Part shown: in pieces, positions 35,607 to 60,083 of the stretch
Layout of the letters: the number at the start of each line of letters is the position of its first letter
Numbering within the stretch: position 1 is the stretch's first letter
DNA from: Dillenia suffruticosa
Lineage: Eukaryota; Streptophyta; Magnoliopsida; Dilleniales; Dilleniaceae
NCBI GenBank assembly: GCA_033439265.1
Contig: JAVTVX010000012.1
Location: 16,998,501 to 17,062,500 of the forward strand
Length of the DNA stretch: 64,000 bases
Reading direction: 5' to 3'
The notes under the pieces: model-generated
What the model was told of the DNA's origin: nothing
Seen by the model: the letters and a program-made list of their open reading frames with translations, nothing else
The model's database searches: none
Made by a program: the position numbers and the translations under genes

Positions 35607-37486
35607 GAAAATTGATAGAAATATATTAATTTCAATAGTTATGGAAATTGGGTTTCCATCAAATATTATAGTATCAATATTATTAATAACTAACTAAAAT
35701 CACTGAATGCCACAAATTCAGTTGTAGTTGGTTTTACGAAACCATTTTTTAACATTTGAATTTATTAATACATCATAACTATATTAAATGTCATGTTTTT
35801 GTCGACAATTTCATCTCCATTTCAATTTTTTTTCCTTTTTAATATTTGAGTCTTCTTTAGCTTCCATGCTTTTACTTTATATTATTGTAGCCATTAAAAG
35901 ACCTCTTTTGAGAAGGATAAAAATCACATATATTTTCGTTATTACTTACTATTAAGTTTACTCTTAACTTCACCATATTTTACTTTATTTTAAACTCTTC
36001 AAATTCTGTATCAATTTTGATTTATCAGTTTTATTTCTTATATATAAAAACTTTTCAATATTAATATTCTTTTTTTTTATTATTTTTGAAATGTTTTAAT
36101 ATGTTAAATAATTCACTAATATTTAGCATTTTTGACATTTGAACATAAGTAACATTTTTCATATTTAATGAATTATTTGCTTATTTAATTATAATTTTTA
36201 TTTTTATGATATTTTTATGATTGATGATTATATATTGATTATTTTAGATTTTAATTATAAAATATAATTATTCTATTAGTTTCATAAAATAATTAATATT
36301 TATATAAAAATCTATATATTTTGTATACTTATATATTTTCTCACGTTTTCGATTCCTTTATCTTTACAAAATGACGTTTCCCTATATCATTTCAGATTCG
36401 TTTTGTTGTCCATTTTCTATTTCCATTTCCATACAATCTAGATTTTCATAATATTCATTTTTGTACTTGACTCTTGCAAGAAACTATCATAGATCCACAA
36501 TATCAGTTACTGATAATGTGTGATATCGAACATCATCTTAATATATGTGATAGCTATTTGAAAAACTCAATTTCTTATAAATTTATTTACACGTGTCAAA
36601 AAATCTGATTTTAATATCGATTTTAATATCACTTGCGAACTTTTCAAGAAGTTAAACCCATCACATGTATCTCTAGTGTATGTGTGTGTGTGTTTACATA
36701 TATCAATCACTCATGTGAACGAAATTTGGACTTAATTTTCACACATAGTCACATAATTTGGTCAAGAGAGTTTATTCGGGTACATTAGCGGCATATAAGA
36801 TAATCAAGTCTATTTGATCAAAAGTAATTTGAAAACAAGTTGATACGATAGTGAAATGAGCGAACAAACTCCTTCATTTAGAAAATGGAAATTACTTTTA
36901 CTTTTAACACCATAATTAAAATTTTTTATTTACATCCAAATAAAAACATAAAAAATTAAACCAACAAACAATCGATCTAGTGGATAAATATACTAGCTCC
37001 CTCAAACAAGTCTCGTATTCTAAACTTAAAAATGAAAAAAATTACGTTAAAAGAACTTTTCGTTAAATTATACCCGACACCCTTTAGTTTAATCTAATTA
37101 GAGTGTGACTCCAAATACCAATTAATTTTTTTTCTTTAATTGAGGTTAGAAGTAATAAAGATTCAACTATTTCCTTTTATATCAAATCATATACAAAGTA
37201 TGTGCAAATTTTACACCGTAAAATTTTTCTCTTTTTGTAAAACTTCGAGATTCACCTAAAGAAACATAGAAAATGCTTTTAGAAATAGATTCTTTTTCAA
37301 AATTTTCCACATATTTGGAATTGTTCAAAAGTTTTCGTAAGGTTTACTTTGAGAATACCAAAACTGTGCTTAACTAATAACATTCAGATTTTTATCTTCA
37401 TAATCTTTCAAAACTATACTCAAATGCATCGAACACCATGTTCACCATGTTCATAATGCAAATCTCAATTTACATGTTTATTATGC
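35607..37486. other. very AT-rich intergenic DNA
   Basis: No gene or repeat family recognised. A short (TG)n run lies near 36680. The last ten bases (37477-37486) are the target duplication of the MULE that follows. Confidence 0.5.
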
Positions 37487-37638
37487 CGATTATTTACCTA
37501 AGTATTGTGAATTTTAAATAAAATTATTTAAACATCATGTTTTTTTGTTATTCCCAAAATGTTGATTTTGCACTTTGAGAGTGCGAAATCAGGCTTTATA
37601 ATGTTAATTTTTTTTTAAAGTAGTTTTGCACTTTGAGT
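37487..37638 (+). repeat. MULE left terminal inverted repeat
   Basis: Matches the reverse complement of 59922-60073, for example TATTGTGAATTTTAAATAAA and ATTCCCAAAAT. The first bases differ (CGATTATTTAC against GGGTTATTTAC). Motifs GTGCGAAA and GCACTTTG recur here and to about 37673, possible transposase-binding repeats. Confidence 0.9.
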
Positions 37639-37889: not shown

Positions 37890-39023
37890 ATGTCTAAGTA
37901 AGTGAAATTAGGGTTTGGAGATTTTTGCATTTCTTTTTCTGAGTTGTTTATATTTTTAGGGTTTGATTTAATTTATGTAATGTGCATACATGTTTCCTGA
38001 GATTATGGTTTTCAAATTGAGGTTAGGCTTTTGAAATTAGGGTGTTTTAAATTGAAATTAGAGTTTTGAAATTAGGGTTTTAAAATTGAAATTAGGATTT
38101 TAAAACTAAAATTAGAGTTTTAAAAGTGAAATTAGGGTTTTGAAATTGAAATTATGGTTTTTAAAATTGAAATTAGGGTTTTGAAATTAGGGTTTTGAAG
38201 TTAAAATTAGAGTTTTAAAATTGAAATTAAACTTTTGAAATTAGGTTTTTTAAAATTGAAATTAGAGTTTTGAAATTAGAGTATTAAAAGTGAAATTAGG
38301 GTTTTGAAATTAAAATTAAGATTTTGAAATTAGGGTTTTAAAATTGAAATTAGAGTTTTAAAATTGAAATTAGAGTTTTGAAATTGAAATTAGAGTTTTG
38401 AAATTGAAATTAGGATTTGAAAATAGGGTTTTAAAATTGAAATTTGGTTTTTAAATTTGATATTAGGGTTTTGAAATTAGGGTTTTAAATTTGAAATTAG
38501 ATTTTGAAAATTGAAATTAAGGTTTTTAAAATTGAAATTAGGATTTTGAAATTGAAATTATGAAATTACGATTTTAAAATTGAAATTAGGGTTACAAAAT
38601 TGAAATTAGGGTTTTAAAAGTAAAATTAGGGTTTTAAAAGTAAAATTAGGGTTTTAAAATTAAAATTAGGATTTTAAAAGTGAAAATAGGGTTTTGAAAT
38701 GGAAGGATTATGGTAATATTAATCATAATATGGTAATATTAATTATCATGTATGATGAAATTATGGTAGTATTAATCATCATGTATACTAAAATTATGAT
38801 AATATTAATTATTATGTATGCTGAAATTATGTTTTTCAAATTAAGATTAAGCTATTAATTATTTATTTGACGAAATCGTTTATATATGTTCATAAGATTG
38901 TAAATTGTCTCTCCATCATGGTTGATATATGTTCTTGGGTTTTATTTTTGTACTATTAGAAAAGTTCTTGGGTCTTGTTCATTGAATGTTATTATATAAT
39001 TATACTTTGTTATTGTTGTTGTA
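37890..39023 (+). other. MULE leader intron with telo-box-like repeat array
   Basis: A start context ATGTCTAA|GTAAGT at about 37891-37903 and an acceptor near 39023-39029 (TTGTAG) suggest an intron early in the transposase gene. About 38020-38700 is a degenerate array of a ~18-bp unit (GAAATTAGGGTTTTAAAATT-like). By my count the motif TAGGGTTT (reverse complement of the plant telo-box AAACCCTA) occurs about 15 times between 37920 and 38700. No coding sequence was seen. Confidence 0.65.
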
Positions 39024-40139
39024 GATAGAAAAAGGAAATATCGGTGACGATCGTGTGTGATTGGTACTTTATTAGAGTGGTTTAATTGGTGGCGTTAAAA
39101 ATGAGTATCAATATAGTATTAGTCCAAAAATGAGTGTTGTGATTGATAGTACTATTAGATGGTATGAGTTTATTAAAATCTTGTATCGTAAAAGTGGGTT
39201 TGATTGTAGGCAATTCAAACTGAATGTTGCATGTAGATATCTTATCTGATCTTGTCAATTTCTTTCTTATTATATATTACCCGTGGAGAACGATGAATTT
39301 TTATCGGAGGTGTTGTCACTTCCAAAATATATTCGGAGTTTGACGGCAGTTGAATTATTTTTAGAGTAAAAAACAATTATATCTCGGCCTGTTGACCCAC
39401 CCATGGTGGGTTGCTCAAGTTGGGGTAGAAAAAATATAGAAGACATCCCGGATAGTTTTGGTAGGATTGAAAATAATTCTGACGTGATGGGTGATATTGG
39501 TAGTGAGAGAAATTTTGGTTATTATATAGACTATTGAGAAGTGAGAATATTGGACAGTACGGTACATTTATTTCAGATAATGTTAATTTGGAGGCTAGTA
39601 CGAGTAGACCTTATGAGAGACAGGAGGTAGATCCGGTAGATACATTTGTTGTTGAGGAATCAGAGGGTGAAAGGGATAATGAGTAGAATGTTGATAATGA
39701 AGAAAATGAAGTTGTTGAAGAGGAAGAAAATCGAGCTGTTGAAGAGGAAGAAGAAATACCATACCTACACACTATGGAGGAAGGGGCCATGAGGGTTGAT
39801 AAGTATAGTGACTATGATCGTCTAATGTGGGATTATGATCAGGTATTAGAGTTAAAGGTTGGGATGGTCTTCGGTTCGAAAGAGAAAGTTCAACATGCTA
39901 TTAAGTGTTGGTCGATACGAGAGCACAGGTACTTTAAAATCTATGAAAGTTCTCCAAATATATGATTTGTGATGTGTTCTTTGTACCGTGAGAATAACTG
40001 TTTGTGGCATATTCGGGCTAAGCTAAAAAAGAATCAACAGTTCTGGGAAATTATGAAGTTTAACGCCAAGCACACTTGTTTTTCTCAATTGTCTTTGAGG
40101 GAACATTCGAATGTAGACTCGAATATGGTTGGTCGTTTG

Positions 40140-43100
40140 TGTCACGCCCCGAACCGCGGTCGTGAGTAGCCACCCGTTACCCTGGATGCCGGCTGTATTT
40201 TTACAAAAAATAGGGCAGAACCTCCCCATTTTCGAAGGTATCCCAAGTACAATTTGACCTGTATAATTTACAACCATCCTGTCAATCAAATAAAAGGGTC
40301 AACCCGACCTCAAGACAATGAACCAAACTACAATAGACAATCAGAACAACCAAGGCTTTTTAATACTAGCAGTCCTAGCCACAGAGCTCTACTATTATAC
40401 CCAACTAGAGCATGAGCAGCCGTCACACCGAGCGGGCTTAAAGTTTATACAATGTACAACAATTTCCCAAGTAAAAATTTTTAAATGTTACAGGTGCCTC
40501 AATGCAAGTAAAATGTGAGAGTTTTCCAAACAATATCCATAATTTATACAATCATCCCATATAAATATACACGGCTAATTACGGACCTCAATATCATGAT
40601 CTCGCAGGGTCGAAATAAAATAAAGACTTCAAATTTTTATTTGAATTAAATCTCATCATCGTGAATACCGAATCCACCAATATGCTACGAAAACCTCTAG
40701 AGCCTGTAACGTCGTTCTATCACAATAATCTTGTCTGAGGTAGGTAAGGAGAGGGGTGAGTATCATGGAAGATACCCGGTACGTGAGGGGATTAATATCA
40801 AGCATAAATAGTGTGGGTGAACCATTTGAGTATCAAACAATATTATTCGTAACAATAATTTACATTTCACAGTAAAACATGATATGTTTAGCAATTTGAA
40901 TTCATTTAACCAATCACACGATGTCAAGCATATATGCATCCATTCAAAATCAAGTATTGTAAGAGCAAGAAAAAATGATCCTGGCAAAGGTCAACCATGA
41001 CCAAGGGTAGGCGGATCGGGGGTTTTATTATGCATGAAGTTCAAAAGTTGCTCTTTATCCCGACGTTGGCCATGAGTTCCCTCGGGTTAGCTCATCATCG
41101 TGTATAGAACCTTGCCCGGTGCTAGACGGTGGTGTCACACACGTCCTTCCCCTTACGTGGGTTCAACCGGCCGTGCCTATAGCAATTAGACATATGACGT
41201 TTACGGATACCTCCTGCAGAAGCATATCTAGGCAACCCGGTACCTCTACAAACGCCCTTCGTAGCTATGGGATTTATCAAAGAACATCATCTCATCACAA
41301 GTGGGCACCCAGCCCATATAGATCATCTCATCACAAATGGGCACCCGGCCCATACAGATCATCAAAACATTTTAAATCTGTGTGCCAATACAATCATCAA
41401 ATCATTTCAAATCTATGCCAATGTGACTGTAGAATAGAAAACATATCTGGTTCTCAAATAATGACACAATATCATTTTATTTCAAACCATGGATGTATAG
41501 TCATCGGAAATATAATTTACGACACTCCAAATATCACAAAACAAGTTTTGAAATTTAATATCATACGTCGAGTCCATGCATATCAAAAACATGTTTTATG
41601 GAAAACACGACAGAAATAAGTTTTACTATTTCATGCAAGAGATTAGAGTTCCACTCACATTTTAGGAAGGGTAGTCACTCCCTAGTTCCAAAATCAAACC
41701 AAATCGACTTCTCGAATCTCCAAGAAAGTCAACCTAATCAGATTATCACAATTGTCATCAAATTTCCAATTATTCTTAGGGTTTATCATTTACTCTAAGT
41801 TTGTATAAATCTTAATTCCTCAATTTATAAATATACACCAATATCATCAATTTCATTCCATTTATAAGTAAATAACCAAATCAAAATCAAGCTAAATTCA
41901 AAGCTAAAACCGTTCAAAATCGAAAACAAGTTTAAAATACATAAATTTCCTACAAGTTAGAAAAATCTTTGAAAATCATACACTTTTCAATTCTCTTCCG
42001 ATTTCTTCAAACTATATGTCATTTTAAAGGTATTGAAACCTATTTTCATATTACGGAAATTGTATTTCGATTTCCTATATGCAAGACAACTTAAAATGAA
42101 AAAGATTGTACCAATCCCTAAACTCAGATCCAATCTCCGACTATTTTCATGCATACGTCAAATTAAACTCTAAAAGAACTATTCAAATCAAGTCAGCCTG
42201 ATTCTATCATATGAAATACATTCTTACTCTAATTTACCCTAAATTTATGCTAAATGCATTCAATTAATTGAATCTGTAAGAAATCCCTCACCTAGGGTTT
42301 TCTAGACTCGTAAATCTAGTCTCCGTTCGCCATTCGGTTCAGTCTAAAACCTGCGTAGGAGATGAGTGCAGACCCGGCCTAGGGTTTTGAAGTTCGGTTA
42401 ACGACTGCCGATTTGGGGCTTTGCAAGAGTGGCAGAAGGTGTGCAAGCGTGCGAGCAGGGAAAGAGTGTTGCAGTCGCACGCGCAAGGAGAGAGAGAGAG
42501 AGACTCACGATAGTGAGGAAGAAACAGAGTCGCGAGAAATAGAGAGGGAAAGGGAGAGAGAAAACCGAGAGGGAAATGAAGGGAGAGATGATAGTGGTTC
42601 ACGGTGGTTGTGGGTGGCGGTGAAGGAGTGGTTAGCGGCGGAGAATCGCAGCGGAGTGGAAGAAATCGCCGCGGGAGAGGAAGGGATTGAGAGAGAGATC
42701 GATAGAGAGAGAGAGTGAGACCGAGGGAAAGAGGGAGCGATAGTGAGAGAGTGAGAAATGGTGGAACACGGCGGCGGTGGGTGGCGATCGGTTGCGGTGG
42801 CGGCGGAGGAGAAAGAAGATGAGGTGGCCGCGGGAAGAAGGTGAAGAGGCGGAGAGAGAAAGAGAAGGAGAGAGAAAGAGAATTAGGGCTTTAAGCCCAA
42901 ATTCGATATATATAATATATATATATATTATATATTATATATTATTATTATTATTATTATTATTACTATATACATTTTTATTTAGATAAATTGATTTATA
43001 AATAAATAATTGAGTATATAATTAAATTAATAAATGAAAAATATATTCTTCACATCACGAATTGAAATACGGATACTTTGAATATACAAAAAAATTTAAA

Positions 43101-43225
43101 TTAAAAACCCCAAAATCGAAAATCAATGAAATTAAAATTTCTCTCTATATATATAAATTGAGGAATATTTTATTTAATTTAGGAACGGGAGTACAAAAGT
43201 ACGGCACCACAGAGCTGGCTTTACA
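40140..43225 (-). repeat. gypsy 3' LTR (3.1 kb)
   Basis: Starts TGTCACGCCCCGAACC and ends GCTTTACA. It aligns over its full length with 48343-51444. It contains a ~36-bp tandem repeat (about 41285-41360, CATCTCATCACAA...GGGCACCC), a GA-rich block (42480-42880) and an AT/ATT microsatellite (42907-42966). Confidence 0.95.
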
Positions 43226-46200
43226 TTTTCTAACCCCCAAAAACAAGTTTCATCCTCAAAACTAAAAGTAAACTATACAGCAAACAAATTGGGGTACTGT
43301 CTCTTAATAGTCTCCTCGGGCTCCTAGGATTCTTTCTCAACTTGATCACTCCTCCACAAAACTCTGACCAAAGAAACGCTCTTGCTTTGCAACTTTCTGA
43401 CCTACAGATCTAGAATAGCCACGGGTTGAACCAGAAGACTAAGGTTCTCTCGAAACTCAATAGGTGGAGGCTGAAGTACATGAAAAGAATCGGGCAAGTA
43501 CTTCCTGAATACTGAGACATGGAAGACATCGTGAATACGGGATAGTTTATCTGGTAGCTCCAATCTGTATGTCATACTCCCGACTCTCTCAAGGATACGG
43601 AAGGGCCCAATATATCTGAGACTCAACTTACCCTGCTGCTTGAACCGTATAACTCTCTTCCAAGGAGATATCCTCAAGAAAACCATATCTCAAGTGGCAA
43701 ACTCAAGAGGTCGCCGCCTACGATCGGCATATGCCTTCTGTCTGTCTTGGGCGGCTTTCATCCGCTCACGAATGACCTTAACTTTATCTTTCGTTTCCTC
43801 AATTAACTCGACATTGCTAAGACTCCGCTCTCCGACCTCATCCCAGCATATCAGGATGCGGCACTTCCTACCATACAGTACCTCATACGGGGGCATCCCT
43901 ATACTGGTTTGATAGCTATTATTATATGCAAATTCGACCAGTGGAAAGTGCCGGTCCTAACTACCCCGGAAATCCATCACACATGCTCTCAGCATGTCCT
44001 CAAGGGTCTGAATGGTCCTCTCTGACTGACCATATGTCTGCGGATGATAAACGGTACTAAAGTTCAGCCTTATGTCCATTGCCTCCTGTAACTTGGGCCA
44101 AAACCTAGAAGTGAACCCCGGGTCCCTGTCTGATGCTATGGACACAGGAACACCATCAGCTTGACTATTGTATCAATGTAAAAACGTGCCAAGGTCTCCA
44201 AAGGATAGTCGTTGTGAATAGGAAGAAAATGTGCGGACTTGGTGAGTCGATCTACAATCACCCAAATGGCATCATGCCATAATGAAGTACGCGGTAGCCC
44301 TATCACAAAATCCATAATAATGTGATCCTACTTCCACTCAGGAATGGGTAAGGGCTGTAATGTACCAGCCGGTCGCTGATGCTCAGCCTTCACCTGCTGG
44401 CAAACTAAACACCTAGCCACAAAATCCACGATTTCCTGTTTCATGCCAGGCTATCAATAACTATCCCGAATGATTCGATACATCTTGGTACCACCCGGAT
44501 GCAATGCATGGAGTGTGCCTTCTCAAGTATGGCCTTGTGGAGATCTGAATCAGCGGGAATACAAACCCGTTTCCTGAACACTATCAAACTATCTCCTCGG
44601 ATCCTGAAGTTTCCACCCTCAGCTCTGCGGACTCTATCTGCAATACTCTGAAGCTCCTCATCTATACTCTAGAGCTCTCGGATACGGTCGAACAAAGCCG
44701 GTTTGATCTCAAATCTGGCTAGTAAGCCTCCCTGATCATCACTAGTCAAACTGACTCCCAAGACTCGAAGTCCCACTAAACAAGAAAGGTAGGCTTTCTC
44801 TGTCAACTGTGAAGATGATGCTGACTTTCGACTCAAGGCATCTGTTACAATATTCGTCTTGCCTGGATGATAGTCAATAATAATGAGGTCATAATCTTTG
44901 AGAAACTCTAACCATTTTCTCTGTCTCAAATTCAGCTTCTTTTGGGTAAATAGATATTTCAAACTCCTGTGATCTGTAAATATCTTGCAGGTCACCCCAT
45001 AAAGATAATGACGTCATATCTTCAATGCGAAAACTATGGCTGCCAACTCCAAATCATGTGTTAGGTAATTAACCTCGTGTTTCTTCAGTTATCGCGAGGT
45101 ATACTCAATAACCCGACTATCCTACATCAGAACACAACCCAATCCCTATCGGCTAGCATAACTGTACACTGTATACTCCCAATTACTAGTAGGAAGGGCT
45201 AAAACAGGAGCAGATATCAACCGTTATTTGAGCTCCTGAAAGCTCGCCTCACAACGATCATCCCAAACAAACTTGACCCCCTTACGGGTCAATTTAGACA
45301 ACGGAGCAGCTATCCGGGAGAATTTTTCTACAAATCGATGATGATACCTGGCTAAACCGAGAAAACTACGGATTTCGGTAACTGTTTGTGGTTGCTCCCA
45401 CTTTAATATAGTCTCAACCTTTCGCGGATCAACATAAATACCTTTCGTGGAGATAATGTGCCCCAAAAATCCTATCTGTCTCAGTCAAAATTCACATTTC
45501 AAGAATTTGGCATATACCTGCTTCTCACGGAGTATCTGTAGTACCACTTGAAGGTGCTGAACATGATCTTCATCACTCTGTGAATACACCAATATGTCAT
45601 CGATGAATATGATGATAAACCGATCCAAGAAATCATGGAAGACTCGGTTCATCAAATCCATAAAAGTAGCTGGGGCATTAGTTAACCCAAACGGCATGAC
45701 TAAAAACTCATAGTGGTCGTATCGGGTGTGAAAAACTGTCTTGGGCATATCTCCGATCCGAACCCTCAATTGATGATAACCCGAATGGAGATCAATTTTC
45801 AAGAAAACCGTAACTCCCTGCAGCCGATCAAACAAATCATCTATACGTGGCAGTGAATATCTGTTTTTTATGGTGGCTTTGTTCAACTGTCTGCAATCTA
45901 CACAAAACCGAAGTGTACCATTTTTTTTCTTTACGAATAACACGGAGCACCCCATGGTGAAGTGCTCGGGCGAATGAACCTCTTGTCTAGTAGTTCCTGC
46001 AACTGAATCTTAAGCTCTTTTAGTTTCGCAGGCACCATTCTATTCGGCGGAATAAAAATAGGATTGGTCCTCAGTATTAGATCAATCTCGAAATCGAACT
46101 CCAGAATTAGTGGTAATCCTGGAAGCTCCTCGGGGAATACATTTGGAAACTCCTGCACCACAGGGACATCTTCAAGTCTCGGTCTCTCAATAGTGGTGTC

Positions 46201-48342
46201 GACAACATAAGCCAGATAAGTCGCACTACCACGGCATACCAAGCGTGTGACCTTCATAATAGATATAATATAGCGGAACAATACTCGTCTCTCGTCCCGG
46301 AATACTAACGGTGGCTGTCCGGACCTTCGAAACTCAACCTCCTTCGTGAAACAATCCATGAAATCCCGGTGTAAACTCAGCCAATCCATCCCTAGAATGG
46401 CATCAAAATCCGTGATAGGGAGCGTAATCAGATCTGCCTCTAAGACCGCCTCCCCAATACCGACCTCACAACCCCTATAGACTGTATCTCGTATGATATG
46501 CTTGTTAAGAGGAGTGACTACCATAATCTCCTCATCAAGTGGCAAGAGAGGTCTATCAGAATGGCGAGCGAACGTGTCGCTCACATATGAAAAATTCGAC
46601 CCGGTTTCTATACCGGCGTCGATACCAAATATTCGCATGGTACCCATAATAACATCAGAGTTTGCTTGTGTGTCCTCCTGTGTCATCGCAAACACACAAG
46701 GCTGGGCCCTAAGCTGCTGTCGTGACGATCTTGGCACTGTATTACTCTCGGCTGCAGTCCGAGGAGTTGTAAGAGTTGATTGCGCAGGTGCCTCCTGCTG
46801 GCCTGTGCTAGAAGTACCAGTACGACCCCGTAAAGTCTGTCCTTGACTCAAATCTGGGCAGGCACTCTTAAAGTGACCTTGCTTCCTATACTGGTAGCAC
46901 GTAACCAGTACTGTACATGCCCCATATGCATGGTGGCTACTGCATCTATGGCAGAAAGGTTGTTTCTGTATAATAGACTGTGAAGAGACACTAGAGGCTG
47001 GTGCCCCAAAACCCTGTGGTCGAGGCCCCTGTCCCGGTCCTGTTGGTCTAAAGATAGAAAAACCTCCGGGATGTCCAAAACCCCTACCCCTCTTCGAAAA
47101 CTGTCCACCTTATGATCCAGTCTTCCTCTTCTAGTGACTCTCTCTCTGTTTAGCCTCAGCTTGGACAATCTCCTCTGCCCGATACGCTGAATCAATCACC
47201 TCTGATAGTGTAAAAGAGGGAGTCACCATCATATACTTCCTGATACTCAATTGGAGGCCATCTTCAAACTTGAATCTCATCTGAGTTGATGTAACCATGT
47301 CGGGGACAAAGGCTACTAGTCGTCTGAGCTTAGTCTCGTACTTTGGGACTGATCTAGTCCCCTGGCATAAGTGCAGAAACTCCGTCCTCATATAGTTCTG
47401 CTGGAACGGAGTGAAGTACCTGCGGTTGAACTCGCGTAGAAAGTCCTCCCACCACAGGGTCTGTATAGCACTATCACGAATAACCTCCCACAACGAGAAG
47501 GCATCTCCGTCGAGGAGTCTCTCAGCAACTCTCAACCGGATCTCCTATGTCAATCCCAGATCAGTAAGGATCCTGCGAGTCCTATTGATCTAGTGCTTTG
47601 CCACTCCGGCATCACTAGATTCTGAAAAATCTATTCATCCGAGCTGCCGAGACTCTTTCACCAATTGAGTAAGCTCATGGATGTGCCTCAAAGTAACCGA
47701 TGTCTCATCGGTCGGAGTAGAAACAGAAGAACCGGCCACCGGAGGAGGAATCGGTGCCGTAGGAACAGGAACGACCGCAGGTGCGGTCGCTGGAGCTGGT
47801 GGTGGAGGTGGCGACATCTGTACCCCATATCACTGTACCACTCCTGCCACTGCCTCAAGGCGTCGATTGGTGGTGGAGAAATCTCGGCTGTAACAGCCGA
47901 TGGAGGTGCTGGGGGTGGCACCGGTGAAGGTGCGTGAGTAGAGGAAGAATCCTCTAGTACTCGTGGAGCCTCAAGTACCCTAGAAGGTTCAGGCTCTGAG
48001 GGACTCTCAGGTGGTGCACCGTGCCTACCATGTTTAGGCGGCATAGTTTTGCAAGGAGAGCACCGTTTCATTAGATAAAAGCAATGATTAGGGTTAGTTA
48101 GTAACTAACCCCCTAAAAAATAAATTAAGTTACGGATCAAGACATGTGAATGCGAAATAGTGGGATAGATACATCATATATCTTACCCTCTATAATAGAT
48201 GAACTTATATGCCTATGGCCATGTATGAGACTTTAAATGACAGTATGAAACTCTCTATTGCATTGAGAACTTTTAATGTACTTTGGGAAGACTTTTTGTT
48301 ACTATCATTTCTCTAACCTAGACGCTCTGATACCAATAGAAT

Positions 48343-51113
48343 TGTCACACCCCGAACCGAGATTGTGAGTAACCGCCCCATTACCCTAGATGCCGGCTAT
48401 ATTTTTGTAGAAAATCAAACAAAATCTTCTCATATTTTAGAGGTCTTCGAAATACAATTTGACCTGTATAATTCACAATTATCCTGTCAATCAAATAAAA
48501 GGGACATCCCGGCCTTAAGACAATGAACCAAACCACAGCAAACAATCAGGACAACGCAAGGCTTTTTAATACTAGTAGTCATAGTCACAGACCTCTACTG
48601 TCATGCCCAACTAGAGTATGAGCAGCTGCCACACTGAGCGAGCCTAAAGTTTATACAATGTACAACAATTTACCAAGTAAAAATTTTTAAATGCTTACAG
48701 GTGCCTCAATGCAAGTAAAATGTGAAAGTTTCCCAAACAATATCCATAATTTATACAGTCATCCCATATAAATGTACACGGCCAACTACGGATCTCAATA
48801 TCATGATCTCGCATGGTTGAAATAAAATAAAGACTTCAAATTTTTATTTGAATTAAATCTCATCGTCGTGAATACCGAATCTATCAATATGCTATGAACA
48901 TCTCTAGAGCATGTAACGTCCCTCTATCACAGTAATTCTGTCTAAGGAAGGTAAAGAGAGAAGTGAGTATCAGAGAAGATATCCAGTGAGTGAGGGGATT
49001 AATATCAAGCATAAATAGTGTGGGTGAACCATTGGAATGTCAAATAATATTATTCGTAACAATAATTTACATTTCACAGTAAAACATGATATGTTTAGCA
49101 ATTTAAATTCATTTAACTAATCACACAATATTAAGCATATATGCATCCATTCAAAGTCAAGTATTATTAGAGCAAATAAAAAATGATCCTGGCAGAGGTC
49201 AACCATGACCAAAGACAGGCGTATCGGGGGTTTTATTATGCATAAAGTTCAAAAGTTGCTCTCTACCCCGACGTTGGCCATGAGTTCGCTGGGGCTAGCT
49301 CATTATCGTGTATAGGACCCTGCCCGATACTAGACGGTGGCGTCACACACGTCCTCCCCCTTACGTGGGATCAACCGACCGCGCCTATAGCCATTAGACA
49401 TATGACGTTTGTGGATACCTCCTGTAGAAGTGTATCCGGGCAACCCGGTGCCTCTACAAACGCCCTTCGTAGCTATGGGATTTATCAAAGAACATTATCT
49501 CATCACAAGTAGGCACCCGACCCATACAGATCATCTCATCTCAAATGGGCATCCGACCCATACAGATCATCAAAGCATTTTAAATCCGTGTGCCAATACA
49601 ATCATCAAATCATTTCAAATCCATGCCAATGCGACGGTAGAAAAGAAAACATATCTGGTTCTCAAATAATGGCACAATATCATTTCATTTCAAACCATGA
49701 ATGCATAGTCATTGGAAATATAATTTACGACACTCCAAATGTTACAAAACAAGTTTTGAAATTTAATATTATACGTCGAGTCCATGCATATCGAAAACAT
49801 GTTTTATGGAAAACACGGCACAAACAAGTTTTACTATGTCATGAAAAAGATTAGAGTTCTACTCACATTCTAGGAAGGGTAGTCACTCCAAATTTCCAAA
49901 ATCAAACTAAATCGACTCCTCGAATCTCTAAGAAAGTTAACCTAATCAGATTATCACAATTGTTATCAAATTTCTATGTATTCTTAGGGTTTATCATCTT
50001 CCCTAGGTTTGTATAAATCTTAATTCCTCAATTTATAAATATACACCAATGTCATCAATTTCATTCCATTTATAAGTAAATAACCAAATCCAAATCAAGC
50101 TAAATTCAAACCTAAAACCGTTCAAAATCGAAAATAAGTCTAAAATACATAAATTTTCTACAAGTTAAAAAAATCTTTAAAAATCATACACTTTTCAATT
50201 CTCCTCCGATTTCTTCAAGCCATATGTCATTTTAAAGGTATTAAAACCTATTTTCATATTACGGAAATTGTATTTCGATTTCCTATATGCAAGACAACTT
50301 AAAATGAAAAAGATTGTACCAATCCCTAAACTTAGATCCAATCTCCGATTATTTTCATGCATACGTCAAATTAAACTCTAAAAGAACTATTCAAATCAAG
50401 TCAGCCTGATTATATCATATGAAATACATTCTTACTCTAATTTACCCTAAATTTACCCTAAATGCATTCAATTAATTGAATTTGTCAGGAATCCCTCACC
50501 TAGGGTTTTCTCGACTCGTAAATCTAGTCTTTGTTCGCCATTCGGTTCAGTCTAAAACTTACGCAGAAGATGAGTGCAGACCTAGCCTAGGGTTTCAAAG
50601 TTCGGTTAACGACTGCCGATTTGGGGCTCTACAAGAGTAGCAGAAGGCACACGAGCGTGGGAGCAGGGAAGGAGCGCTGCAGTCGCGCGTGCAAGGAGAG
50701 AGAGAGAGACTTGCGATAGTAAGGAAGAAATAGAGTCGCAAGAAATAGAGAGGGAAAGGGAGAGAGAAAACCAAGAGGGAAATGAAGGGAGAGATGATAG
50801 TGGTTCACGGTGGCTGTAGGTGGAGGTGAAGGAGCGGTTAGCGGTGGAGTGGAAGAAATCACAGCGGGAGAGAAGGGATTGAGAGAGAGATCAATAGAGA
50901 GAGAGAGTAAGACCGAGGGAAAGAGGGAGTGACAGTGAGAGAGTGAGAAATTATGGAACACGACGGCGGTGGGTGGCGATCGGTTGCGGCGGCGGCGGAG
51001 AAGGAAGAAGATGAGGTGGCCGCGGGAAGAAGGTGAAGAGGCGGAGAGAGAAAGAGAAGGAGAGAGAGGAAGAATTAGGGCTTTAAGGCCTAATTCGATA
51101 TATATATATACTA

Positions 51114-51192
<79 letters not shown>

Positions 51193-51444
51193 ATATATTT
51201 TTATTTAGATAAATAGATTTATAAATAAATAATTGAGTAAATAATTAAATTAATAAATGAAAAATATATTTTTCATATCACGAATTGGAATACGGATACT
51301 TTGAATATACAAAAAAAATTTGAATACCCCAAAATCGAAAATCAATAAAATTAAAATTTCTCTCTATGTATATAAACCGAGAAATATTTTATTTAATTTA
51401 GAAACGGGAGTACAAAAGTATGACACCACAGAGTCGGCGTTACA
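48343..51444 (-). repeat. gypsy 5' LTR (3.1 kb)
   Basis: Starts TGTCACACCCCGAACC and ends GGCGTTACA. It has the same internal layout as the other LTR. Differences are densest in the first 200 bp and sparse later. Its ATT microsatellite (51116-51188) is about three times longer than the partner's. Confidence 0.95.
51116..51188. repeat. (ATT)n microsatellite in the gypsy 5' LTR
   Basis: About 24 ATT units, against about 8-9 at the same LTR position in the partner (42940-42966). Confidence 0.9.
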
Positions 51445-51559: not shown

Positions 51560-54500
51560 TAGTGAAGTAACCGGGCCGGTTTGGGCCCGAAAACCGGCCC
51601 GGGTAAAGCCTGGAACCGGAACCGGCCCATACTACAGTAAACCGGCCCGTCCCGGAACCGTTTCCTGTAGCGGGCCGGGCCGGTTCCAAAAAAATTTGAA
51701 TCGGGAACCGGCCCGGTTTGGAAAACTGGCCCGGACCGGAACCAGCCCGGAACCGGAACCGGAACCGGCACGGAACCGGAACCGGCCCGGGCTCGGAACC
51801 GGGCCTGAACCGGCTGGAACCGCTGGTTCATGCCCGGAACCGGCCCGGCCTGTTCCGGTTCAAATTTTCCCCCTTTTTTTTGAATTTTGAGAATTTTCCA
51901 ATTATACCCCTCCCAACAGCTATAAAACGGCTACTTTTGAGGTTATTTTGGTCCATAGGGTCAAAAAATTTTCCTATAAATACCTTATACCCCATTTCCA
52001 AAATCTCCACAACAAAATCTCTCTTTCTCTCTTTCTCTCTTTCTCTCTCACATCTACATTCTCAATATTACTACATTCTCTCATTATTATTTCCTTTGTA
52101 TTATCATTTTTTATATCATTTCCATCATTTTCTACACTATTACCTATACCATTTCTATCAATTTTTATACCATTTCATCACCTTATACACCATTTTCATT
52201 TTCTCCATTATCTACATTTCCACAATTATTTACATTTTCACCAATTTCTACACCATTTCTATTCTCTTATACCACATTACCTACACCATTTTTTATACCA
52301 TTTTCATCAAATTTTACACCATTTCCATCAAAATTTACACAATTTCATCACCTTATACCCCATTATCTACATTAATCAAGATTTGAGAAGATTTCAAGGT
52401 TGGGAGCTCATTCAAGATTTTGCGAAAAACAACTGCGATATTCGTCAAATCGGTACATTTAAATTTTTTGCATATTTATTTTTTTGCATTTGCATTACAT
52501 TTGCATTATCTTTTTAAAAAATTTAATCTTAAATTTCCTTTAAAAAATTTTATCGTATATATTATTTTAAAAATTTTAATCTTAATTTTTTTTTATAAAA
52601 TGGCCGGAACACACTCTTCACAATCTTCTCAACAATCTCCTCTTCCTCCATTTTTTGAAATTCCCGATCATATAGATATTGAAACTTTTTTGAAAGAAAT
52701 TGAACCTAGTAACACTGAATCTAACACAACACAAACTAAAAAAAATGATTTTAATATATGGATATTTTTTGAAAGAAAAAATGATGAACAAAAAGCAATT
52801 TGTAAAATTTGTTATTAAAAATATAAATTTTTAAAAGGTTGGGGGGTAGGCACACTTAAGAGACACTTAATTAATAATCATCCAGATAAATTAACACAAA
52901 CAAAACAAACACAAATTTCTACATGGGGGTAATATAACTGGTACATTTAAATATAATTCGGATAAAGAAAAAATTGAACAAATAGAATGGCTAGCAAGAA
53001 AAGAATTACCACTTAATATAGTTGCATGTCCTGTATTTGAAGAATATGTACAAAAATATTTACAATCCGATTATAAAAAAAATAGTAAAAAATCCGGTAG
53101 TTGGAAAAGTGGTATACTTACAGAATTTATGACTAGTCAATGTAAATTTTCATTAACTTCGGATAGTTGAAAAAGTGAGCATAAAAAAGAATATTATATT
53201 GTAGTAACATGTCATTGGATAAATAATTCATGGTCTTTACAAAAAAAAATTTTTAGCTTTTCAACGTTGGGAATTTCCACATTCCGGTGCACATATAGTT
53301 AGAATAATTTCAAATGTTGTTTATGATTATGAAATAAGTGATAGAATTTTTTCTATTTCCTTTGATAATGATTCGACTAATACTAATGCGGTTAATAGTT
53401 TAAAAAATTCTTTAAAAATAATTTTAAATAAAACTTTTTTTCATATTAGATGTGCATGTCATATAATTAATTTATGTGTTAAGGATGGTTTAGCAATTGG
53501 AGAACTATTTTTACAACCTATTCGCGATTTAATTCATCAAATAAGAAATTCTGCTGTAAAAACTCAAGAAATGAGACAATTATGTATTTTACATAACAAA
53601 AAATATAAAAAATTTAAAATGGAATGTGACACTAGGTGGAATTCAACATATGACATGTTACAAGGTGTTCTTCCTTTTCAAAATATTTTAATTGAATTTG
53701 CAAATTCAAATTACGAATATAGTTTTATTGATAATATCGCTTTTGAATTTGCGTCTACACTTACAAAATTATTGGAAATTTTTTATTTATGTACAAATTT
53801 ATTTTCTGGATATTATTATCCAACTACTCATTTAATGCTATCAAATCTTTGTAAAATTATTTATGTATTTAATGAATTTGAAAATGAATAAAGATTTGGT
53901 GAAATTGTTCTTTCAATGAAAACAAAATTTTTAAAATATTATGAAAAAATTCCAATTTTATATTTAGTTGCAAGTGCATTAGATCCACGTGTTAAGGTTG
54001 AAGGTGCTGAAATGTTAATAAATTGTTTTGCACAAGCTTTTCCATCAGAAATGTCTATTAACCCACATTTTTTAAAACAACAAATATTTCATACTTTACA
54101 ATCAATATTTGAATTATATGAAAAGGAAATTAATAATTTAAATACTAATAATATAGCTAGTAGTAGAGTAATAGTATTCAATCATCTTCATTTTCATTTA
54201 ATCCCTTACACATGTTAGGAAAAAAACAAATAACTTCATCATCATCATTTAATAAATTACTTTTATATAAACAAACACCTAGATTAAAAGGTTTTTATGA
54301 TATAGATTTATATGATATATCAGATTGGTGGAAAAATAATGTATCGTATCATCCAATTTTGGCCCAAGTGGCTAAAAATGTACTAACCCCTCCGGTATCT
54401 ACAGTACCATCCGAAAGTGCTTTTAGTACAGGTTGTCGAGTGTTAACCGAAAAACGTACAAATTTAGCGGACGACACTTTAAAAGTTTTAATATGCATTA

Positions 54501-55095
54501 AAGATTGGAAGGATGCAGAAAAAAGAATGTAATGAATTATCAAAGTCTCGGAAGATGATGAACAAGAAGTTGAAGAAAAAGAAGAATAATAATAATAATA
54601 ATAATAATAATATTTTTCTTTTGTTTAAAAGTCATTTTAAATAGAAAAAAAAATCAAAATGATGTAATTATCAAAATAATGTAAAAAAAAATAGTGGATT
54701 TAAAAATCCAAGTGATGAGCTTGGTAGTGGACGTACACCGAATTCGGTGGAACCACTCTAAAAATCTTGTGTTTTTAATTTTTAATTACAAGTGAATTAT
54801 CAAAAGTTAATTAAAAAAAAAACAAAGTTAAAAAAAATGGAGTTATAAAATTAAAATGGAATTAAAAAATAGATTTACAAAAAAAATTTAGAAAAACGCA
54901 ATAGAAAAAAAAAAAAAAAAAAAAACCGGGCCCGTCCCGGCCCGGAACCGCCGGTTCCGGTTCAGCGGGCCGGGCCGGTTCCACAAGAAAAAAATTGGGA
55001 ACCGGCCCAGCACGGCCCGGACTGGCCTAGGAACCGCTGCCGGCCCGACACGCGATTCCTCAAACCGACCTTGAACCGGCCCGGTTACTTCACTA
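51560..55095 (+). mobile_element. hAT DNA transposon with transposase and GC-rich ends
   Basis: Perfect 22-bp terminal inverted repeats beginning TAGTGAAGTAACCGGGCCGG (51560-51581 and complement 55074-55095) lie inside a perfect 8-bp duplication GTTGTCGA (51552-51559, 55096-55103). Subterminal regions (51575-51870 and 54925-55090) are arrays of CCGGAACC/GGCCCGG motifs, sharply GC-rich against an AT-rich interior. A pyrimidine-rich leader (52010-52380) precedes the transposase. It inserted into the MULE transposase gene. Confidence 0.95.
52600..54532 (+). pseudogene. hAT transposase (BED finger, RNase H-like core, hATC), lightly disrupted
   Basis: Start chosen at 52600 (MAGTHSSQSSQQSPLPPFFE). 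A BED zinc finger follows (CKIC...GTLKRHLINNH, about 52801-52880), then the hAT RNase H-like core with DTRWNSTYDML (53627-53660) and ALDPRVK (53971-53990), and the C-terminal dimerisation domain (WWKNNVSYHPILAQVAKNVL, VPSESAFSTG). Full span ~640 codons, normal for Ac-like hATs. Visible damage: a stop at 52816-52818 inside the finger, frame loss around 52925 and 53250, a stop at 53889-53891 and one near 54216. The modest number suggests younger decay than the surrounding MULE genes. Confidence 0.92.
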
Positions 55096-56646
55096 GTTGT
55101 CGAAAATCTATTGAAATTGTATATGGTAATTGGGAAACTTCTTACACATTGTTGGCATAATTTCTAAATGCTATATAGATGAGTAATCCAGGAATAGTGG
55201 TTAATTGGAGGTTTACTGAATTATCAGGGGCTAATAAGAGGGTATTTCACTCGATATTCTAGGTTTTCAAGTCATGTATTGAAACATTTAGACATTGCAA
55301 GCTAGTGATTAGTATTGATGGCACATTTTAGTATGAGAGATATAAGGAGAAAATTTTAATTGCCATTGGAACGGATGCAGCTAACCATATTCTTTCTCTG
55401 TGTTTAGCTATTGTCGATGAGGAGTCCATTGTGATTTGAGATTAGTTTTTGGAGAATTTAAGAGTACATATTATTGGTGATCGACATTGAGTGTGTTTGA
55501 TATCAAATAGAACGCTTGGTATAATGCGAACCATAAAGAGGAATGGTAATCAGCAACTAGCAACCAGCACTTATGTATCATAGACTTTGTTTGCGTCATG
55601 TGGAGGGTAATTTTATCCTGCGATTCAAAAACAAACCGCTAACAGAGTTGAAGCAAAAGGCAGCCGAGAAAAAACAAATCATAAAATTTTATACTGTGAT
55701 GAACAAGATTAAAGAGCTTAGCGAGCCGGCGTATAGGTGGTTGATGGAGATTTCGCTCGAGAAATGGACTTCGTTTTATGATGGGAGACATAAATGGGGC
55801 AACATGACCATGAATTGATTTGAATCATTCAATGGTGTGCTTAAATGTGTAAGAAAACTGTCAATAACTGCATATGTATGGGTGACATTTTACCACATGG
55901 TTCTATTCTTAAATAAGAGTCGAGAATAAGCAGCTAACAATATCAGAGAATACAATATGTGGCCAATAATTGTTATGGAAAATTGGTTAAAATTAAGCAG
56001 AAAGCGAAATTCTATTGCATCATTGCATTTGACAGGTCTAGGGGTGAGTATGAGGTCATAACAGGATTTTATGGTGGAAGAGGCGAAAACAACCACATGA
56101 TACTGTTAGATGTTCCATCATGTGCATGTGGAAAATTTACTATATTTAAACTTCTTTACTCACATATGTGGAGAGTTTGTGCAGATATGGGTTTAGGGTT
56201 TGGAATTTTGTAGACAAACTCCATAGTTGTCAATTTATGGAGTTTACATATGGTGGGAGATTCATCATCCTCCACACAAGGACTATTGGCCCCCTTCTTC
56301 TTTCCGTTTATTACACAATGTTTTACAGTTTAATAACCAATCAGGTAGATCTTGAAGTACGCGGATTCATAATGAAACGGATAGAAAAAGAACTCAGAGT
56401 TACAAGACATGTGGTGAATACGAGTATAATCGTCATCATTGCCCGAATATGGCTTGTTTACAAGCGAGGGCGAGAAAATGCCGACAATTTTGTCATCGTT
56501 ACCTTATTGTTTCATATTGTGTAATCGACATTCAATTATTATGGATATTCAGTATTTTTATGACTTATTATTTAATGTATTCATTTGTTACTTGCTTTCA
56601 CTACTTAGAAATTTTATTCTTCTTTATTTTTCTTGTCATCATAGTT

Positions 56647-59282
56647 ATGGATTACACTAGTTCAGACTAAGGCTGCTATGATACTCGGGTAGTATCACGG
56701 GTACTCGTGACACTACCCGATCAAAGCTTGAGCTCGAGCTTGGGCTCGGGTAGCTCGGTATCGAGCTCGAGCTCGAGCCCAACTGTATCGAGCTCGAAGG
56801 CTCGACGAGCTATCCGAGAAATATTAATTTTTTTTAAAAAAATATTTTTTATATATAATATATTTTTTAAAAATAATTTTTATATGTAAAATTACATTTT
56901 TAGGTATATTTTTTAAATATTTTATTTACACTACCCAACGACACTACCTGATAATACCTAATGACACTTCGAGCTCGAGTTCAAACTCAAAAAATACAAT
57001 CTCGACGAGCTCGAGATTGCCTAAAGTACATCGAGCTCGAGCTCGAGCTTGGTATTGTAATGCCTGAGCTTGACCCGGGTTTCATAACACCCCTGGTTCA
57101 GACTTTACTTCAGATCCCTGGGATCCTAGTGCCTTAACCTTATAAGTCACACACCGGTCTCAGTCTATATGGGAGACCGAGAGTGATACCCCACTAGAGG
57201 TGCGTCGTTCAGACCATGGGTTTTGGGCTGCTCGACCACTTGATATTATGGTACATGAGATTTTGTTGCGGGTTGGGATTTATGATCTGTATATGTGTGG
57301 TCACATTTAGCATGATCATGCTCTTATTACCGTGTTTGTTGAACGGTGGAGACATGATATCCATACTTTTCACTTACCTGTTGATGAGATCACAATTATG
57401 TTACAGGATGTTTCGGTGCTACTCGGGTTGCCTTTCGATGGAGATGCATTTATTGGAATAAATTACTCTTGTTCTATTACTGAGTGACAGGACGTTTGTC
57501 ATAGTCTGTTAGGTTTCTATCCTGCACTAGAGGATTTTTTTGATGACCGTCTTAAGATACAGACTATCATGGATTTTCTTACTTCACATCCTCTAGAGTC
57601 GAACTCAGATGCGACACAAGTGGAGTTCCACGCACGCGGTCGCATTATGTAGCTGCTGGGTACTCTTTTCGGGGATCAGTCGGGATTTAGGGTTAAGATT
57701 TGTTATTTGCAACTTCTACGAGATCTAGAGTGCGCGGGACAACATAGTTGGGGCAGTGCTATCTTGGTGACATTTTACAGAGCCATGTATCGGGCTTATG
57801 TAGATAGTGTTTGATAGATTTGTGATCCGATTTCATTTATACAGGTATTTTATCTCTATTTGATTTTTGAATTTTTGTTTAACAATACTTTATATAAAAA
57901 TTATATCATTTATTCAATATATTTTCTGTTTTGAACTTTGAGTATAGGAGAGAGTACCCATATTTACCCTTATTAGACGTCATCATATTGATCCAATGTC
58001 CTCTGTTGTACACTTACCCATAGATCATAAAGGATCACTGTACGTAATTTTCATTTAATTTATTTGTATTTTATTTCTATTCTCTTCACTTTGGTATATT
58101 TAATGTTGACATTGTCTTATTTGTAAGTAGTTGTGATGTTCCTCGTAGCCTTGTACATATAGGACAATTTGTTTTTAGAACGTACATGGACCAGTTGGAT
58201 CATATGGGAGATACATGGGTGAGTATAATTTCCTTTTATTTGTACTGTCTTCAATTTCTATAGTTTTTACTAACACATTATTTTTTTTTTCAGTTCATTT
58301 AGATGCCATATTTGCATGCTGACTTGTTGGCGTTGTTTGCCTATTGTCTCGTCTGCAACGAGATATGGCGGGCCGAGATTTTCTTGATTTGTTTTGAGGT
58401 TGTCTGGTATCATTACCCTCAGAGGGTAATGAGACAGTTCGGGCTCCTACAGTATGTTCCTTTGCTAGTATCTATAGATCCGGAGTTGTACTGGACTAAT
58501 CGACATGGGAGGCAGGGACGCAATTGGACGAGGACACATGTCGTACCTTTGCAAGTGTAGGAAAACCGTACATATCACATTGTATAGGGTGATGACACTT
58601 TCGATGAGTTGAGGAGTACACCTGACTATATGTGGTGGTATCGTTAAATCACTCATTCATATATTATGTGTCCAGCCCATCGTTATCAATACGGATACTA
58701 ACTCACAGCGACACAAATAGAGTATCATGTAAGTCAAGATATGATTACCATTAAATATTTTTTATAGTTTATGTAATATTTTTTTTCTTTCCTTTTTTGC
58801 AGTGCTATGAGCTAGAAAACATGTATTTACTGGCGTCGGATGTACTTGCTGAGGAAGGAGTGGATCCAAGATTTGGAGAGTTCAGAGATGCATCATGGTG
58901 TGCCCTTTAGTTTGTCGAGTATGTGCCATTTGACGAGAACCGTCCTTCGACATCTGCACATAAACCTACTGCACAGATGGATATACCTTTGATCTCGGGT
59001 GTTGCAAATGATGATGATGAAGCGACGAAGCTAGTTCCATCATCTTCCTACCCTACTCCGATTCTGGTATGTACGGACGATATCAATGAGCCTCCACGAC
59101 TTAGTGTTTACGAGCAGAGACGTCGTTGTGCTCGACATTCAGTTGATATTCCTACTCCAGTTGCATTTCCCGAGGTTGATGAGGGTGTACTTTTATATGA
59201 TATACCTCAACCTGCATCTGATAAGCCAGCGCGCATTCCCATGAGATGTCAGTCGCGACGCCATACTGGACGACTCTTTACG
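56647..59282 (+). pseudogene. plant mobile domain (PMD, MAIN-like) gene carried by the MULE
   Basis: Begins MDYTSSD at 56647, then the MITE (56668-57095) interrupts. Likely exons: 56647-57844 (minus the MITE), 57948-58043, 58131-58218, 58294-58728, 58803-59282, with GT-AG borders such as ACAG|GTATTT and TTTGCAG|TG. PMD hallmarks: DHALITVFVERWRHDIHTFH and LQDVSVLLGLPFDGDAFIG, then VKICYLQLLRDLE, SWGSAILVTFYRAMYRA, WRAEIFLICFEVVWYHYPQR and VMRQFGL. PMD proteins such as Arabidopsis MAIN and MAIL1 act in silencing and genome stability, and their PMD-C relatives are known from transposons. Roughly ten stops interrupt it. It follows the transposase by about 120 bp on the same strand, as a second element gene. 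Confidence 0.87.
56668..57095. mobile_element. hAT-type MITE (428 bp) inside the PMD gene
   Basis: An 8-bp duplication GTTCAGAC (56660-56667, 57096-57103) flanks imperfect inverted ends (TAAGGCTGCTATG against CAGGGGTGTTATG). Both subterminal parts carry GAGCTCGAGCTCGAG repeats (56735-56815 and 56965-57050) around an AT-only centre. There is no coding capacity. It sits 21 nt into the PMD reading frame. Confidence 0.88.
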
Positions 59283-59921
59283 GTATTTAGATTTCATTTC
59301 TTATTTTATATGTATTATATTTAAATTTCGTAAATATTAATTTCATTTTTTTATAAAATAATTTTCGTTACTATCGTTTTTTTCTCATATCGTTCTTATG
59401 TTAGTTCAACGTTTATAATTACTTATAGTTATGTTAATTTCTTATTACTTTCTTTGAATATCCTATATTTTGATTTACATTAGTGGTGATCATAATTGAA
59501 TTAGTTGTGTTATTAGTTGGTGGCATTTCTATTCACTGTATTTGGTTATGTGTGATTGTGTTTGTCTACTACTGTAGAGTATGGATGATAATATTCACAG
59601 TACCGATTGGGTGGTGTTTCAAGATAGTTTTATTTGTATTCGGTATAAAATACAGTGATAATGTTTTGAGTATTGTGGTGGATGTCTTTAGTGTTTCGTT
59701 TGTCATGAAAAGTGGGTAGAAGTTACAGATGCCGGAATGGATATATTATGTTTGCCTTCGTCATGAGCAATGCAGGGGCGGCACATAAACACCGCTCGCG
59801 ACTCGCATTGGGCATACATGCTGTGGCATAAATAACCCCCGTGCAATGCACAGGCAATGCTTGCCCACCAGAAGGGCACCGCATGGAGAGTGGGATTAGA
59901 GTGTAGGATATTTTTATAGTT

Positions 59922-60073
59922 TGAGAGCAAAATTACTTTTTTTTTTAAAAAAAAAATTATCGTTATAAATACTAATTTCACATTGTGAGTGCGAAATCAA
60001 TATTTTGGGAATAAAAAAAACACGATATTTAAATAATTTTATTTAAAATTCACAATAATTAAGTAAATAACCC
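59922..60073 (-). repeat. MULE right terminal inverted repeat
   Basis: The partner of 37487-37638. It includes GAGTGCGAAATCAATATTTT and the AT-only run at 59937-59958 that corresponds to the T-rich run on the left. Confidence 0.9.
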
Positions 60074-60083
60074 TTTATTATGC

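Follow-up and report, generated by a model that had tools for sequence, protein, structure and literature searches.

A Mutator-like element family of Dillenia suffruticosa in which a transposase is paired with a plant mobile domain gene, probably as a two-gene lineage

Introduction

Does a plant mobile domain (PMD) gene that lies immediately behind a transposase belong to the transposon, or is it host DNA carried along by chance? This question is raised by a 64,000-nucleotide stretch of the Dillenia suffruticosa genome (hereafter the window, to which plain coordinates refer). A sequence-only reading of it had identified a multi-exon PMD gene directly 3' of mudrA, on the same strand and inside the terminal repeats of a Mutator-like element (MULE), an arrangement that is borne out by a PF10536 match and by homology with relatives elsewhere in the genome.

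The first description of the PMD concerned a rice MULE (Babu et al. 2006, as cited in PMC5418596). According to Ikeda et al. (2017, PMC5418596), MULEs took up PMD-C on two occasions, one in grasses and one in Amborella, and encode it within fusion proteins. In eudicots, mainly genic PMD-C is found (Nicolau et al. 2020, PMC7156037), and in tea 175 phased-siRNA loci are located at PMD genes (PMC10673657).

Results and discussion

Structure of the element in the window

The MULE spans 37487-60073 and is at present 22.6 kb long (Table 1). Comparison of the window with itself gives an inverted match between 37490-37632 and 60070-59924, corresponding to TIRs of about 145 bp (143 and 147 bp, with 84.6% identity over the best 130). 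Both long TIRs and a 10-bp target duplication are thus present, as features of MULE membership; MULE target-site duplications are typically about 8-11 bp. The interval given in the sequence-only reading is 56647-59282, and the TIRs lie far outside it.

Table 1. Features of the MULE in the window and the position of the intact gene L037
Feature	Coordinates	Strand	Basis or remark
Target-site duplication TTTATTATGC, left and right copies	37477..37486, 60074..60083		10/10 identical
5' TIR of MULE	37487..37632	+	inverted match to 59924-60070
Decayed mudrA-type transposase, 5' part (N-terminal region)	39040..40139	+	DNA search and L037 protein similarity
Nested LTR retrotransposon	40140..51444	-	3.1-kb LTRs with 89.6% identity; GTTTG repeated on either side
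Nested hAT element	51560..55095	+	8-bp flanking repeat GTTGTCGA; Dimer_Tnp_hAT
Decayed mudrA-type transposase, 3' part	55104..56484	+	DNA homology to L030
Splice-acceptor-like site CATAG, 5' of PMD start	56640..56644	+	AG in 19/20 aligned rows; predicted
PMD exon 1, ATG 56647, interrupted by insert 56669-57095	56647..57844	+	homology
Small insert in PMD exon 1	56669..57095	none	between two copies of GTTCAGACT
PMD exon 2	57936..58039	+	homology to L037 exon 2
PMD exon 3	58131..58218	+	homology
PMD exon 4	58294..58728	+	direct PF10536 match
PMD exon 5, taken as last	58803..59290	+	stop at this place in 19/21 relatives
3' TIR of MULE	59924..60073	-	inverted match to 37490-37632
L037 intact gene	G000:C11:19836964-19838898 (L037 465-2399)		mudrA N-terminal region and MULE-type PMD

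Three nested inserts, each with short flanking direct repeats, make up most of the 22.6 kb. On the minus strand, the LTR retrotransposon carries fragments of gag, protease and RT; the small insert starts 22 nt past the PMD ATG and is missing from the other 19 aligned rows. Assignment of the PMD to the neighbouring retrotransposon was considered and ruled out, as the PMD lies within the MULE ends and has a mudrA part ahead of it in 19 of 20 relatives. Internal to the 5' TIR, an extended array of GAAATTAGGGTTTT-like units occupies 37998-38714; one relative, L024, likewise has units similar to GAAATTAGGGTTTT internal to its own TIR.

The transposase is preserved in two decayed parts, the first of which is protein-similar, at 39040-39456, to the N-terminus of the intact gene L037 described below. 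The window's three broken mudrA pieces gave no MULE or PMD match in a Pfam search. A MULE transposase domain and a SWIM finger are assigned to the window element by way of DNA homology with the relative L030, whose frames match PF10551 (E 1.2e-10) and PF04434 (E 1.2e-4). The place of 56482-56484 is a stop codon in most relatives; of the 17 aligned copies retaining it, 14 have TGA, and the window reads CGA. Between this TGA place and the PMD ATG there are 162 bp in the window; the spacing of ~120 bp given earlier was taken from a frame that is not mudrA.

In the PMD gene, PF10536 matches 58303-58560, in exon 4 (E 2.2e-9; 37.4 bits, cut-off 34.9). The relatives L034, L039 and L002 also exceed this cut-off; no PMD match was returned by the Pfam search for the window pieces 57198-57461 and 58911-59324. 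The exon borders are predictions derived from homology with intact L037 and DNA identity with 21 other copies. At the 3' end, the suggestion that 59282 is a splice site does not hold: GC stands at 59283-59284 in 14 of 22 copies and GT in three, and TAG or TAA follows a few bases past 59282 in 19 of 21 relatives. By eye, the window lacks one base near 59282 that is present in all 21.

Fourteen in-frame stops occur in the 618 codons of the window PMD that were examined, and each of the 22 old-family PMD copies (the window's own family, window included) carries 6-21. The window copy of the MULE is dead. Splice-site conservation was tried as a sign of function and discarded, with donors retained in 17/22 and acceptors in 17-19/22 copies (introns 1-4) and no excess over a background majority of 0.80. 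The position of intron 1 is common, by eye, to L037 and the host-type genes L038 and L042.

Linkage of transposase and PMD in the old family

A whole-genome DNA search with the PMD yielded 290 candidates, and 40 places were scored, the window among them; the others are 75-82% identical. Twenty of the other 39 places were taken with 9.9 kb each, and L039 was added with 7.4 kb. The mudrA 3' region lies at least partly ahead of the PMD in 19 of the 20 relatives, although L027 is without the mudrA 5' part and L023 has about 1.4 kb between mudrA and PMD. Two short copies of about 4 kb retain TIRs and PMD; mudrA is reduced to 121 bp in one (L024) and absent from the other (L031).

Both TIRs are found in order in 12 of the 20 relatives, and the other eight show a single end, or ends out of order (L036). 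From TIR to TIR, eight relatives measure 7.1-7.8 kb and L020, with an insert, 8.5 kb; L024, L027 and L031 have large deletions and retain 3.8-4.9 kb. Perfect 10-bp target duplications flank L021, L022 and L030, and L029 has one matching at 10 of 11 positions; measured against 300 random pairings, these four lie beyond the 99th percentile. In 8 of the 12 two-ended relatives, the target duplication is within the range of random pairings. The order TIR-mudrA-PMD-TIR is seen in most relatives that retain both ends.

Relatives found by their PMD are uninformative on PMD-less copies, and the linkage test therefore starts from the transposase. With the mudrA 3' part as query (40 places scored of 237 candidates, window included), a listed PMD lies downstream at at least 32 of the 40 places, mostly at a distance of about 170-280 bp, with extremes of 11 and 1608. 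The sequence of five of the remaining eight was inspected, and a PMD is present in all five (in L046 with an internal deletion); at the last three, the PMD 3' flank follows 2.2-2.4 kb on, a distance fitting a PMD gene. The outcome that would have spoken against the sequence-only reading, a PMD confined to this copy or generally lacking from MULEs of this type, is thus not what is seen. With a mudrA 5' query (38900-40139; 40 places scored, itself included), at least 26 places have a PMD within 5 kb and two have one further off, including the insert-laden window; six have only the 3' flank near, two have the flank far away, and four have neither PMD nor flank listed.

Some TIR-sharing elements have no PMD listed. 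At least 16 of 40 scored TIR places (162 candidates) have a mudrA, PMD or 3' flank listed at a distance of up to about 5 kb; among the matches listed, the other 24 have none of the three in that range. Eight of these 24 form four inverted pairs, about 1.1-2.0 kb in size, with neither gene listed between them, as expected of non-autonomous derivatives. A further decayed MULE-type PMD was encountered at G000:C12:17072124-17072741, about 9.6 kb past the window's end.

MULEs are known to take up gene fragments (PMC5418596 and PMC8616336), and all old copies examined are decayed. It might thus be supposed that some copies carry a piece of a host PMD gene by chance, without function, in the manner of a Pack-MULE. 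The traits of a Pack-MULE (a captured fragment, no transposase, erratic presence) were not what was found among the transposases examined, nearly all of which have an adjoining PMD. Constraint between subfamilies and a second family with the same layout (both below) also argue against chance capture, which we consider highly improbable. The pairing of transposase and PMD looks like a family trait, a lasting partnership rather than a chance pick-up.

Selection on both genes

Raw variability among PMD copies is 0.227, 0.183 and 0.218 at codon positions 1, 2 and 3, and 0.166 in introns. Decay after insertion dominates such values, which cannot show selection; the comparison was therefore based on net divergence between subfamilies. 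Subfamily B (L019, L029, L033, L035 and L039) was compared with the other 17 copies, a grouping that comes from a tree of the same PMD region. The net divergence of the PMD is 0.0105, 0.0097 and 0.0460 at positions 1, 2 and 3 and 0.068 in introns, which are the most diverged, and positions 1+2 relative to position 3 give a ratio of 0.22 [0.12-0.36]. With three other splits the ratio is 0.22-0.23, and when a single subfamily is split at random, in two trials, the net divergences lie between -0.007 and 0.002.

For mudrA, in which 19 of 22 copies are alignable with L030 as reference, the ratios are 0.23 [0.09-0.43] and 0.25 [0.11-0.46]; a third split, at 0.21 [-0.14-0.95], is too weak to judge. 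The ratios are alike in both genes, and the PMD was therefore constrained like the transposase while the element multiplied. To judge from these sequence comparisons, both genes were under constraint while mobile. The low dN/dS foreseen in the sequence-only reading is thus supported in the form of net divergence by codon position, which was used here rather than a codon model.

One protein or two

It is possible that the PMD is instead the C-terminal domain of a transposase fusion, spliced over the stop, with a part in target-site choice or complex assembly. MULE PMDs of several grasses and Amborella are described as fusion proteins (PMC5418596). The junction was aligned in 20 rows, which do not include L023 and L031, and of which L022, L024 and L028 are without the mudrA stop place. 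Among aligned copies, 130-165 bp (141-165 bp in the 14 rows with TGA) separate the mudrA stop from the PMD ATG, which is retained in 18 of 20 rows, and an AG acceptor stands just ahead of it in 19 of 20. Subfamily B has a donor-like GT in four of five copies (L029, L033, L035 and L039), and a splice from this old-family donor (CAAG|GT) to the acceptor before the ATG would keep the frame.

Against such a fusion, subfamily A has GC at the donor place in 8 of the 12 copies retaining it and GT in none. In the young family described below, the transposase of one copy ends ACAAATTAA and an acceptor-like CAG abuts the PMD ATG; no codon starting with GT occurs among its last 20 transposase codons (one copy, by eye), so that no in-frame donor is available there. 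A fusion thus appears unlikely, and a separate PMD gene with a putative intron in its leader is favoured.

A young MULE-PMD family

The PF10536 matches best represented in the genome belong to a second family, of which L002-L008 were compared; these are 97.9-100% identical over about 4 kb, and L006, L007 and L008 are identical over 4077 bp. The C-terminus of its transposase is open for 363 aa and contains a SWIM match (E 5.9e-8) and zinc knuckles; the MULE domain is only partly inside this piece and falls below its cut-off (E 0.03). The transposase stop lies 229 bp ahead of the PMD frame, which runs uninterrupted for 438 codons from its ATG and is accompanied by a further 180-codon frame without a Pfam match. 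Genome-wide, a PF10536 search finds a 490-codon PMD frame without a listed stop at 14 places. Open frames of 870 aa are listed for 16 young transposase places and are not relied on, one of them also listing a stop.

The layout recurs: a PMD lies within 4 kb of at least 68 of 112 young transposase places, including 41 of the best 45, and the two of the 44 unmatched places whose sequence was inspected (sister group) both contain one. Conversely, 68 of 117 PF10536 places in the genome have a young-type transposase upstream. Between old and young transposases, identity is 39% in a stretch of 145 residues and 27.5% in one of 120. The MULE transposase just upstream ruled out two other classifications, that of L002-L008 as gypsy PMDs and that of L043 as a host gene. 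The young family has likely been active recently.

PMD phylogeny and a probable intact derivative

A tree of PMD exon 1, confined to this genome, was built from ten old-family rows, four young or sister rows, L037, four host-type rows and L001. The old-family PMDs and L037 form one clade (bootstrap 99-100), separate from the genome's MAIN/MAIL-like genes, and this much can be said in answer to the earlier proposal of a tree with MAIN/MAIL proteins. Each MULE-PMD family is strongly supported, and L042 is the nearest host-type gene, with the branching order of the three unsettled. One joint MULE-PMD clade is not rejected by an AU test (p 0.149), and one capture and two captures are therefore indistinguishable.

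L037 is a stop-free gene of four predicted exons and 540 aa (its open frame is 378 in the sequence, against 647 as listed). In 17 of 22 family sequences, window included, the mudrA N-terminal region matches L037 residues 1-148 (E 1e-33 to 4e-12), and the remainder of L037 is a PMD. No family TIR was found in the 4 kb around L037 (best E 0.046). Among the matches listed from this genome, no other spans the full length of L037. Those scoring best contain stops and have 62-63% identity in the PMD part; identity is up to 66% in shorter matches, and a few short matches are free of stops. After correction for decay, the distance from L037 to the family is 0.23, 0.16 and 0.44 at positions 1, 2 and 3 (388 codons), a ratio of 0.44 [0.38-0.51] in which position 3 may be near saturation. 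L037 is likely a domesticated host gene that arose from such an element when the transposase core was lost.

A wider arms-race cycle is conceivable but rather doubtful. A host gene of silencing type would have been captured, selected as the second gene through at least two families (one dead in the copies examined, one young) and then retaken as L037, which may now control the elements.

Possible role of the PMD and comparison with known systems

The reading that we find reasonably probable is that of a two-gene MULE lineage in which a MAIN/MAIL-like PMD, introns included, serves as a second gene that helps the element, the window copy being a dead member. A host PMD gene of this type would have been captured with its introns by a MULE lineage, and translation from the ATG 130-165 bp past the transposase stop would yield the PMD as a separate protein. 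The most likely way in which it could help the element is as a competitor or mimic of the host MAIN/MAIL1-PP7L silencing complex, which would let the element be transcribed; this anti-silencing step, taken alone, is put forward tentatively. Copies would then decay, many of the stops resembling C-to-T or G-to-A changes by eye, and receive later inserts. The layout of L024 and L031, with TIRs and PMD and almost no mudrA, would also fit a PMD-centred element.

In MuDR, the second gene is a helper in transposition. The two-gene layout and the similar constraint on transposase and PMD would be equally compatible with a PMD that assists transposition itself and has no silencing role. The argument against this is an indirect one, from the host relatives MAIN and MAIL1, which function in gene expression and silencing (PMC5418596 and PMC7156037), and we regard a purely transpositional helper as possible but on the unlikely side.

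VANC, with which a comparison is natural, is a different protein from the PMD. VANDAL21/VANC21 (PMC8616336) is nonetheless similar in being a DNA transposon with a gene acting on silencing, and serves as the proposed functional parallel. The MULE PMD-C elements of Ikeda et al. likewise combine a transposase and a PMD thought to be host-derived in one element (PMC5418596). Unlike those fusions, two frames are present here, parted by a stop and a spacer of 130-165 bp in the old family and 229 bp in the young one, and constraint, copy age and a derived gene are examined in addition. The Ty3/gypsy PMD-A elements described in the same paper also encode a PMD in a transposon; those are LTR retrotransposons, whereas the neighbour here is a MULE transposase. 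With host MAIN/MAIL (PMD-C), the old-family gene shares the PMD domain and the position of intron 1, although the old-family PMDs and L037 form a clade of their own that excludes the MAIN/MAIL-like genes L038, L040, L041 and L042.

Conclusions

A literature search, with most subscription journals outside it, found among the entries listed no title or abstract opening on the two-gene family, a selection test of this kind or an L037-type gene. The two-gene layout with its selection test, the range from dead to young families and the likely domesticated derivative are apparently new. An anti-silencing use of MULE PMDs has been suggested as speculation (PMC5418596 and PMC8616336), and counter-silencing by transposon PMDs has been published speculation since 2017. 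The occurrence in one genome of dead, old and near-identical young elements, together with signs that the PMD was retained by selection and an intact derivative, makes this question open to experiment.
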